Assembly (NCBI GenBank): GCA_027487835.1
Contig: JAIYCU010000037.1
Span: 1 to 64,000, forward strand
Length of the DNA stretch: 64,000 nt
Direction: 5' to 3'
From: Bacteroidota bacterium
Lineage (GTDB): Bacteria > Bacteroidota > Bacteroidia > UKL13-3
The translations under genes were made by a program, and so were the position numbers. Below are positions 58,890 through 61,036 of the stretch, in pieces. The notes under the pieces were generated by a model that saw only the letters and a list, made by a program, of their open reading frames with translations, had not been told where the DNA came from and ran no database searches. The first letter of the stretch is position 1, and every line of letters begins with the position of its first letter.

Positions 58890-59150
58890 TCAGTGGTTGT
58901 AGTTAGGTGAATAGTCACTTTTATTAATTAATTGCAATGTTTCTCTTGCTGATTTACCTTCATTTTTAGTTGGGTTTTTTGCAGACAATGCAAAAATTAA
59001 ATTGATAAATAAGGAAACCACCAACAAGCATAATAAACATAAGGAAATGAAATTATACCTGTCAATTGGCCAAAGATTATGATAAGTAAGTAATGCGCTG
59101 AATTGGAGTATAAATACAACAAACTGCTTAAATGAGAAAATTAGTTTCAT
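58890..59150 (-). CDS. Small two-helix membrane protein, paralogue A
   Basis: 86 residues. It starts MKLIFSFKQFVVFILQFSAL. Two membrane helices (about 8-22 and 32-55) and a polar, basic C-terminal tail follow. It is related to the next upstream gene (59202-59393): both begin MKLxFSxxQ, have helix-turn-helix spacing of the same length, and end with LIFALSAKN or IMLAFANTK. I do not recognise a family. The 51-bp gap between them suggests a common transcript. Confidence 0.6.
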   Translation of the reverse strand: MKLIFSFKQFVVFILQFSALLTYHNLWPIDRYNFISLCLLCLLVVSLFINLIFALSAKNPTKNEGKSARETLQLINKSDYSPNYNH

Positions 59151-59201
59151 GTTTTGTTTAATTATTAGTTAGTTTTTTTATTTCTTTTTATCTTTTTTTA
59201 T

Positions 59202-59393
59202 TTACCAAATTTTATCCTTTGTGTTGGCAAAGGCGAGCATTATATTAATGATGATTGCTATGCTAAAAATTGTTAAAAGGATAAGTCTCGTAAATAAGTA
59301 ACCTCCTAAACTTTCAGCGGTAACCAGCCAACCTATCATGATAGATTGAATGATTAGTATCAGCAGTTGAATAATTGAAAAATATAATTTCAT
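59202..59393 (-). CDS. Small two-helix membrane protein, paralogue B
   Basis: 63 residues from ATG 59393 (the frame can be read upstream to 59438, but MKLYFSIIQ matches the start of paralogue A). Two membrane helices (about 3-21 and 31-53) and a short tail. It lacks paralogue A's 25-residue C-terminal extension. It is divergent from the LytTR-like gene at 59609 across an intergenic region rich in dyads. Function unknown. Confidence 0.6.
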   Translation of the reverse strand: MKLYFSIIQLLILIIQSIMIGWLVTAESLGGYLFTRLILLTIFSIAIIINIMLAFANTKDKIW

Positions 59394-59471
59394 ATAGCTT
59401 TTGTTCAATGCAAGATTAAAACAGTCAGCTTTTCCCATTCATAAACATTATTTCAATTGTCTATAGATTTA

Positions 59472-59488
59472 TTACATGCATCATGTAA
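59472..59488. promoter_or_regulatory. Dyad in the divergent intergenic region
   Basis: TTACATG (59472-59478) and CATGTAA (59482-59488) form a perfect 7-bp inverted repeat around three bases. It lies between the divergent small membrane gene and the LytTR-like gene, which suits an operator. Which protein would bind is unknown. Confidence 0.35.
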
Positions 59489-59523
59489 ATAGATTTTAAT
59501 AAGTTGAAGAAGTTTGAATATGG

Positions 59524-59541
59524 AATAGAATTAATTCTATT
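59524..59541. promoter_or_regulatory. 18-bp perfect palindrome upstream of LytTR-like gene 1
   Basis: AATAGAATTAATTCTATT is its own reverse complement. Its right half carries the first copy of the ATTCTAT direct repeat that precedes the gene, and its left half puts the same word on the minus strand facing the small membrane genes. Confidence 0.5.
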
Positions 59542-59562
59542 GCTTATTACTGACCATTCTAT
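59534..59562 (+). promoter_or_regulatory. 22-bp-phased direct repeat upstream of LytTR-like gene 1
   Basis: ATTCTAT occurs at 59534-59540 and 59556-59562, exactly 22 bp apart, and TTTACTT begins one base after the second copy. The ATG lies 46 nt further on. The same arrangement precedes the paralogue at 60455. LytTR regulators typically bind two direct repeats on one helix face with about this period, so an autoregulatory site is plausible. Confidence 0.55.
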
Positions 59563-59608
59563 GTTTACTTGAACCAAGGATTACTTAATTGCCACCACTA
59601 TTTCTTGT

Positions 59609-60181
59609 ATGAATCAACAATTACTAAATCCTGCTTTTTTTAATGCAGACATGCTGCTAAATTTCAACCTTAGCTATGGGCTTAAGTTTTATGGAATGTC
59701 AGCGCGTATAAATGAATGCCGCCCTTATAAATTATATAAAAAAAAGGCGGCCGATTTATATTACATAAAATCATCACATCAGTTTTTTAATTTAACAGAC
59801 GATGGCATCCTGTATAAAAGGGATGATTTGATTTGCATATTTATACGCAATCAAACAAGTTTAATTTTGCTGCTTCAAAAGGATGTCGTTATTTATCATC
59901 TCTTAACTGCCGAAGAGGTATTTGACTTTCTGCGAACCTTTGAAATTTGTTGGGTAATGGCTGATGAAAATACACTCATACAGCCAAAGGCTATTAAACA
60001 TATTGAAGTGGATTCAAATTTTTGTTTTGAAGTATGTTTAACAAATAATTTAAAGCTTAAGTTTCTTAACCTCTGTGTGCCCTCAAAGTATTTGGCCATG
60101 TTGCCAAAATATAGAATCCCAAAAGCTAATAATTGTGGTTTTACCCCTTCCGAAACCTATAAGTTCAATCGTATATTATGA
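59609..60181 (+). CDS. LytTR-like orphan protein 1 (diverged)
   Basis: 190 residues, no signal or membrane helix. Residues about 72-170 follow the LytTR pattern: a strand-rich start (DLICIFIRNQTSLILLL), a helix (AEEVFDFLRTFE), the WVMADENTLIQPKAIKHI segment where LytTR proteins have F-vRvHrSyLVN-x-x-I, and FEVCLTNNLKLKF near the end. The usual Arg and His are missing. It is full-length homologous to the gene at 60455. No kinase is adjacent. The stop overlaps the zinc-ribbon gene (ATGA). Confidence 0.45.
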   Translation: MNQQLLNPAFFNADMLLNFNLSYGLKFYGMSARINECRPYKLYKKKAADLYYIKSSHQFFNLTDDGILYKRDDLICIFIRNQTSLILLLQKDVVIYHLLTAEEVFDFLRTFEICWVMADENTLIQPKAIKHIEVDSNFCFEVCLTNNLKLKFLNLCVPSKYLAMLPKYRIPKANNCGFTPSETYKFNRIL

Positions 60182-60342
60182 TTTTCCAAAAACATGCACC
60201 TAGAATTTGCCCTGAATGCCAGAATTGGGATTTAGAAAATTGTGCCCTTCCTTGGCCCTATAAATGGCTTTCAAATTGGTTCAATCTAAAAGCAAAAAAA
60301 TGTAGAAAGTGCTTTGTCGTTTACGTTTACGCGCCAAATTGA
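60178..60342 (+). CDS. 54-residue zinc-ribbon-like small protein
   Basis: 54 residues, opening 4 bp inside the end of LytTR-like gene 1 (ATGA). CPEC at 11-14 and CRKC at 42-45 form two CxxC pairs separated by 27 residues rich in Trp (three, including WPYKW), a treble-clef or ribbon zinc site. A further Cys lies at 22. Such proteins commonly bind nucleic acid or partner proteins. The overlap and the composition argue that it is a real gene, but the family is unknown. Confidence 0.6.
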   Translation: MIFQKHAPRICPECQNWDLENCALPWPYKWLSNWFNLKAKKCRKCFVVYVYAPN

Positions 60343-60378
60343 ATGATAATTTTGATTCATTTATTTGCACTCGAAATT

Positions 60379-60407
60379 ATTCTATAATACTCGGCCAGTA
60401 ATTCTAT
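60379..60407 (+). promoter_or_regulatory. 22-bp-phased direct repeat upstream of LytTR-like gene 2
   Basis: ATTCTATAAT is repeated at 60379-60388 and 60401-60410, again 22 bp start to start (core ATTCTAT at 60379-60385 and 60401-60407). TTTACTT starts two bases after the second core. The ATG at 60455 is 47 nt past the second core. A -7-like TAATTTTG (60347-60354) lies upstream. Confidence 0.6.
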
Positions 60408-60454
60408 AATTTACTTTTTAAGAGAAGGCTAAATTGCCTGAAAATAGCTATACT

Positions 60455-61036
60455 ATGCACTTTAATTTTTTCACTATGGATTTAAATAGTGATACTTTAT
60501 TTTTTGATCGAAATTTGAGATTAGGCTTGAAGTATTTTCATAAAGAAATTTCACTTTCAGACCTTTCAAAAATTAAGTTTAGTAAAAAATTGGGGATAGA
60601 ATTATACTCTTATAATGTACAGCATGTTTTAAACATAATCAATGATCCCGAAGATTTGCTGCGCATGACAGAGCTCGTTTGTATTTTTTGTTTGAATGAA
60701 TGCTCCATCATTATTATGTTTTATCAAGGTTTTAAATCCTATCACTTTAATTGTTTGGCAGAATTGCAAAATTTTATTGCCATGTGTCAAATTAATTGGG
60801 TCTTAGGTGATCAAAATATATTTATCCATCCTTCTGCCATCGATTATATAAATAATACAGAAGAAACTTATCTCGAAGTGAGTTTTAAAAATGGCTTATT
60901 CCTTCATTTCGAAACCCTATTTTTAACAAAACAGTTTCAGTATCTCTGCTACTTACCTTGGCATGGCTGCACAATCATTAGCAGCTCCCCTCCCGAACTT
61001 TTGCAGTATAAATGCACCCCTTTGAGATTATTTTAG
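60455..61036 (+). CDS. LytTR-like orphan protein 2 (diverged paralogue)
   Basis: 193 residues from ATG 60455 (an in-frame TTG at 60434 and ATG 60476 are alternatives). It aligns along its length with the gene at 59609: NLRLGLKY with NLSYGLKF, ELVCIFCLNECSIIIM with DLICIFIRNQTSLILL, and NWVLGDQNIFIHPSAIDYI with CWVMADENTLIQPKAIKHI. It keeps a His in the HPSAI segment where LytTR proteins have one. Probably a DNA-binding relative. Its own upstream repeat pair suggests auto- or cross-regulation. Confidence 0.45.
   Translation: MHFNFFTMDLNSDTLFFDRNLRLGLKYFHKEISLSDLSKIKFSKKLGIELYSYNVQHVLNIINDPEDLLRMTELVCIFCLNECSIIIMFYQGFKSYHFNCLAELQNFIAMCQINWVLGDQNIFIHPSAIDYINNTEETYLEVSFKNGLFLHFETLFLTKQFQYLCYLPWHGCTIISSSPPELLQYKCTPLRLF

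Follow-up and report, generated by a model that had tools for sequence, protein, structure and literature searches.

The two copies of the direct repeat ATTCTAT-N15-ATTCTAT that stand before two adjacent paralogous genes in the window (the whole 64,000-nt stretch of DNA analysed) are probably 7-2-7 operators of a NarL/LuxR-type response regulator encoded at the C2 locus, on another contig of the same genome (G000), with a putative second dimer site 22 bp away. The genome looks like one from the Bacteroidota. The sites are rare in G000 and cluster at the regulator's own locus in three genomes, whose regulators group together in a tree. Judged from sequence, an uncharacterised NarL-type two-component system would thereby gain an operator and a probable regulator, and two otherwise featureless orphan genes would be tied to the circuit of the C2 regulator. 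In relatives, this system is linked to very large proteins of secreted type that have lectin-like domains. The mechanism is of a known kind.

A rare repeat pair and its palindromes

An earlier note on this DNA had described the pair as a 22-bp-phased direct repeat, followed one or two bases later by TTTACTT and 46 or 47 nt later by an ATG. Both copies are exact where it placed them (Table 1) and are the sole exact copies in the window; TTTACTT starts 1 nt (site 1) or 2 nt (site 2) past the second word, and the ATGs at 59609 and 60455 follow that word after 46 and 47 nt. The words of the two sites are identical at 14/14 positions, despite agreement at 1 of the 15 spacer positions, which bears out the note's view that they form a shared control element and not a simple recent duplication of upstream DNA. 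It overlooked a perfect palindrome at 59525-59540, whose right half is the first word of site 1. Inverted heptamers in 7-2-7 arrangement are thus perfect at site 1, while site 2 has the right half alone.

Table 1. Positions of the repeat words, putative operators and genes in the window and at the C2 locus
Feature	Position	Strand	Remarks
Direct repeat ATTCTAT-N15-ATTCTAT, site 1	59534..59562	+	Exact copy
Direct repeat ATTCTAT-N15-ATTCTAT, site 2	60379..60407	+	Exact copy
Putative primary operator, site 1	59525..59540	+	Perfect 7-2-7 inverted repeat ATAGAAT-TA-ATTCTAT; 18-bp palindrome counting the flanking A/T
Putative secondary operator, site 1	59547..59562	+	Left half degenerate, right half ATTCTAT intact; offset +22
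Putative primary operator, site 2	60370..60385	+	CTCGAAA-TT-ATTCTAT, weaker, right half perfect; 2 mismatches to RTMGAATNNATTCKAY
Putative secondary operator, site 2	60392..60407	+	ATTCTAT right half alone kept, 22 bp downstream
TTTACTT, site 1	59564..59570	+	Common to site 2; perhaps part of the core promoter
TTTACTT, site 2	60410..60416	+	
Gene 1	59609..60181	+	190-aa orphan; LytTR-like fold predicted for about residues 61-167
Gene 2	60455..61036	+	193-aa orphan paralogue, 30% identity to gene 1; LytTR-like fold, low-confidence model
Small ORF	60178..60342	+	54 aa, CxxC...CxxC, zinc-ribbon-like by eye; overlaps gene 1 stop as ATGA
Divergent small hydrophobic protein gene	59202..59438	-	
Second small hydrophobic protein gene	58890..59150	-	
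Exact ATAGAATNNATTCTAT palindromes	window 59525-59540; C2:11681-11696; C2:14826-14841		
NarL/LuxR-type response regulator	C2:15871-16551		Response_reg E 1.4e-23, GerE 3.4e-12

The exact pair occurs three times in the 3.38-Mb genome, for which the 7-mer frequency measured over 105 kb of it predicts 0.35 copies; the reversed control occurs nowhere. Counting ATTCTAT pairs at any spacing of 2-30 bp across the genome gives seven (one for the reversed control), of which three have the 15-bp spacing and the other four spacings of 5, 9, 18 and 22 bp. When two 170-nt upstream regions were simulated, setting no condition on distance to the ATG, any repeated 7-mer at a common spacing appeared in 12 of 200,000 trials. 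Relaxed to three or fewer mismatches, the pair is at chance level in the window, with 16 matches against an expectation of 16.4. The exact pair was found three times in total in 59 other genomes (G033, G039 and G042), and 18 genomes of the same genus had none. The pair is real and enriched, though the set is small.

The palindrome behaves likewise. Exact ATAGAAT-NN-ATTCTAT (ATAGAATNNATTCTAT) is present at three places in the 3.38 Mb, against 0.18 expected, and six more places genome-wide, C2:17299 among them, are one mismatch away (one place for the reversed control). A few literature searches returned neither the palindrome letters of site 1 nor the regulon, and no relevant paper on a Bacteroidetes LuxR motif or on LytTR with NarL.

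A NarL/LuxR-type system at the C2 locus

The third exact copy of the pair lies at C2:14813-14841 and ends 43 nt before the TTG start of an operon in which a kinase-like gene comes first and the gene of a response regulator, which has receiver and GerE domains, comes next. The earlier note had looked to a genome search to show whether copies precede related genes: the window copies do stand before paralogues, but the third precedes this operon instead. The same 43 nt separate the C2:14826 palindrome from the TTG, and two further palindromes lie nearby. That at C2:11681 is 54 nt before a large sensor-kinase-like gene (L024:6752) and lies between this gene and a divergent frame, at least 2135 codons long, in which lectin-like repeats can be made out by eye. 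The one-mismatch palindrome at C2:17299 precedes a receiver-only gene by 71 nt.

The kinase assignments are weak. The C2 kinase-like protein reads by eye as a divergent histidine kinase and has no Pfam kinase match, and in the large sensor genes the HATPase_c/HisKA matches are below cut-off. Across 60 genomes this protein is matched, besides G000, in G002 alone, and weakly (22% identity); no relative of it was found in viral contigs. The lone second word at C2 lies upstream of the palindrome, not downstream, and was considered as part of a further 7-2-7 palindrome, which its 1-bp spacer rules out.

Two small orphan proteins encoded between a regulator and a receiver-only gene, at L024:11945-12277 (G000) and on the minus strand at L075:6499-6966 (G002), look LytTR-like by eye. 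Neither matches the LytTR domains of the genome, and homology with the window proteins, plausible by eye, gained no support from comparison.

The regulator and its sites in other genomes

The best relatives of the C2 regulator are in G002 (53% identity), G003 (43%) and G028 (43%); among named organisms, four Spirosoma loci and one Bacilli MAG have relatives, all at 26-33% identity. The site recurs at the own locus of a receiver-plus-GerE regulator in G000, G002 and G028 (domain scan for G000 and G028). In a tree of 24 of the 30 rows (L052, L055, L060, L063, L064 and L065 were dropped), these three regulators form one group with support 91/80, G003 coming next, so that the clade of palindrome-bearing regulators is moderately supported.

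At the G002 locus the palindrome GTAGAATTAATTCGAT lies between a kinase-like gene, which it precedes by 42 nt, and a divergent 1416-aa gene; the product of the latter has Laminin_G_3 and fn3 domains, together with a secretion-tail match that falls just below cut-off. A further palindrome at this locus precedes, by 98 nt, a 1019-aa gene with a similar make-up, and here the secretion-tail match is above cut-off. G002 has six places at one or fewer mismatches from RTMGAATTAATTCKAY, two at the regulator locus and four with no evident link to the system; the site closest before the regulator gene itself has two mismatches (L041:2214). In G028, which belongs to another genus, the regulator is preceded by a palindrome at 36 nt, a kinase-like gene by one at 57 nt and a 3451-aa gene by one at 81 nt; 22 bp downstream of this third palindrome, a half-kept site includes ATTCTAT. 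The whole G028 genome holds three places within one mismatch of RTMGAATTAATTCKAY and the fetched locus holds three, so all of them are at the regulator locus.

The degenerate consensus was drawn partly from loci in which it was afterwards counted; a pattern taken from G000 alone was also counted. At one or fewer mismatches it is found once in 20 kb of G002 and twice in 18 kb of G028, against none in a 247-kb background (in which some DNA is counted twice), and simulations reached the G002 count in 4 of 200 and the G028 count in 0 of 200. At two or fewer mismatches the figures are three in G002, three in G028 and three in the background. Six other long regulator loci (L076 and L078-L082) have no match to this pattern at one or fewer mismatches. 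One of them, L076, is the G003 locus, which has one match at two or fewer; the G003 regulator outscores that of G028, yet its locus has no closer match. It does carry a variant palindrome, ATAGATA-NN-TATCTAT, twice (L076:9503 and L076:14453), between the divergent regulator and receiver genes and before a large gene. Noticed post hoc in AT-rich DNA, this variant suggests that operator and regulator may change together.

Very large genes stand at several regulator loci (L024:3-6407, L075:11588-15838, L116:2071-5130 and L117:3705-14060), and those of L075 and L116 both have Laminin_G_3 and fn3 domains in a domain scan; such genes are candidate targets of the regulon. Beside a palindrome of G002, at L116:1957-2014, is a 14-bp inverted repeat (TGCTTATAAAATAA and its complement) that ends in another ATTCTAT at a 42-bp step.

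How the operator may work

Under the preferred reading, each ATTCTAT would be the downstream half of a 7-2-7 inverted heptad, with the working consensus RTMGAAT-NN-ATTCKAY, and each inverted heptad would be bound by one dimer of the C2 regulator. Each window promoter has a further putative dimer site two turns (22 bp) downstream, which would place two dimers on one face of the DNA, just upstream of the promoter, and the direct repeat would simply be the row of well-kept downstream half-sites from two adjacent dimers. When phosphorylated on a signal from the sensor kinase, the regulator would switch on the genes of its own signalling system, those of large secreted-type proteins (in the relatives) and, in the window, the two orphan LytTR-like genes. 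We infer which protein binds, that it activates instead of repressing, and what the targets do. At site 1 the perfect palindrome is upstream and the half-kept site downstream; site 2 follows this order too, its primary site being weak, and at C2 the order is reversed. Left halves are poor in both secondary sites and in the primary site of site 2. Of the 11 sites compared, 4 have a complete second word at 22 bp from the palindrome; three of these four were selected through the 22-bp pair, the G028 case alone being independent, and the second sites keep one good half only.

BvgA of Bordetella belongs to the NarL/FixJ family. At its promoters, head-to-head dimers are described every 22 bp, with centres 22 bp apart and on one DNA face, and in Pfha a high-affinity inverted heptad forms the primary site furthest upstream while the most proximal site abuts the -35 element, according to the available part of PMC7250471. 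With words at a 22-bp step and an inverted heptad as putative primary site, the window sites would resemble the published arrangement of dimers just upstream of the promoter. They differ in heptad sequence, in having 2 bp between the heptads where the Pfha primary site has no spacer, and in number, with at most two sites known from sequence here against three to six dimers there (PMC7250471, as far as available). NarL of Escherichia coli offers the second likeness: its 7-2-7 sites, inverted heptamers 2 bp apart, are bound by a dimer of the output domain, although the heptamers are of the TACCCCT type, not ATTCTAT/ATAGAAT, and the target genes are unrelated (accessible text of PMC4549865).

The window genes and the LytTR interpretation

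The earlier note had called both genes LytTR-like and the repeat a shared, probably autoregulatory, control element. The fold is borne out in prediction: LytTR domains fill the first 13 (gene 1) and 12 (gene 2) Foldseek rows, and the gene 1 model aligns to LytTR in VIA-align with Z 8.3, the first unrelated entry reaching 4.1. The proteins are accordingly called LytTR-like with low confidence, from models with a mean pLDDT of 52.6 (gene 1) and 42.4 (gene 2) built on an alignment of two sequences. The sequence profile does not follow. Pfam LytTR gives no match to either protein at E up to 10, and hhalign with a two-sequence profile, of low sensitivity, gives none to the genome's six LytTR domains. 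The LytTR-like parts are acidic, with net charges of -3 and -8 against 0 to +7 in those six domains, although gene 1 as a whole is +5; and where most of the six have a conserved basic stretch (such as FFRxxR), the window proteins read by eye WVMADENTL and WVLGDQNIF. No relatives of the two proteins were found in 60 genomes at E 0.01, or with two peptide patterns each in the genome contigs and in viral contigs, or, for gene 2, in plasmids.

Autoregulation or cross-regulation, with these proteins binding the 22-bp direct repeat upstream of the genes that encode them, would accord with the predicted folds, with the positive charge of the whole gene 1 product and with published LytTR regulators, which autoregulate through direct repeats of near this period (available portion of PMC6193735). 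The words about two turns apart and the small membrane-protein-like genes nearby are further likenesses to LytTR regulatory systems (PMC6193735, same portion). However, the repeats tabulated there are 9-mers of other sequence with 11-13 bp spacers, not a 7-bp ATTCTAT with a 15-bp spacer, and the regulator and membrane protein of an LRS share one operon, whereas the hydrophobic-protein genes here are divergent, on the opposite strand (PMC6193735). A two-turn geometry is no mark of LytTR in particular, 22 bp being the BvgA spacing too (PMC7250471, as far as available). Autoregulation by LytTR proteins is disfavoured by three observations: site 1 is a perfect inverted repeat and not merely a direct one; the third genomic copy stands at the promoter of a NarL-type regulator; and variants of the element occupy promoters in G002 and G028, two genomes that yielded no relative of the window proteins. 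We regard this reading as unlikely, and the attribution to LytTR as probably wrong; a 22-bp direct repeat beside LytTR-like genes need not be a LytTR site.

Rather improbable, too, is a combination in which two folds share one operator, the NarL-type regulator reading the inverted heptads and the LytTR-like products reading the 22-bp direct words or, their DNA contacts lost, binding the regulator. If true, it would make a feedback switch, in which a gene of the regulon has evolved to compete with its own activator.

Other regulators, promoter elements and duplication

The window genes might instead be controlled by one or more other regulators with a similar palindromic site, the match at the C2 promoter being convergent. 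Other regulators of the family do exist in G000 (five matches, the C2 regulator itself counted), and the degenerate pattern is widespread: at one or fewer mismatches it is present in 44 of 60 genomes (33 for the reversed control), with seven places in G009, six in G002 and five in G000, and among the matches listed it is exact once each in G011, G022, G049 and G059. Two of the five places in G000 are outside the known loci, the exact C9:53767, which overlaps the end of a hydrolase-like gene, and C43:1263, and have no evident link to the system. Since 44 genomes have matches and G009 has more than G000 or G002, a single copy remote from the regulator counts for little. Nevertheless, the exact palindrome has only three places in the genome, two of them at the C2 locus, and the word 22 bp away is common to the window and C2, which makes convergence quite improbable.

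We give still less credence to a core promoter for an alternative sigma factor, of which the words would be the upstream and downstream elements. The near-constant distance to the start (43, 46 and 47 nt, the first depending on the TTG start) and the TTTACTT after both window copies would fit, but the perfect palindrome, the clustering at the locus of one regulator and the single palindromes 36-71 nt before other genes, which lack a second word, would be left unexplained. A functionless remnant of a tandem duplication of gene and promoter, suggested by the adjacency of the paralogues, is highly implausible, given that both words and TTTACTT are intact beside proteins of 30% identity and spacers agreeing at 1/15, and that the same arrangement recurs at the unlinked C2 promoter.

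Around the operators, which we prefer to ascribe to the C2 regulator, the 54-aa ORF, missing from an ORF list with a minimum of 60 aa, is probably co-transcribed with gene 1, and the divergent hydrophobic-protein gene could share the control region 59439-59608. The patch 58890-61036 that holds the orphan genes has a GC content of 0.26-0.37 by segment, against 0.38 for the window, and may be a recent acquisition. The two minus-strand hydrophobic proteins encoded in it resemble one another by eye.
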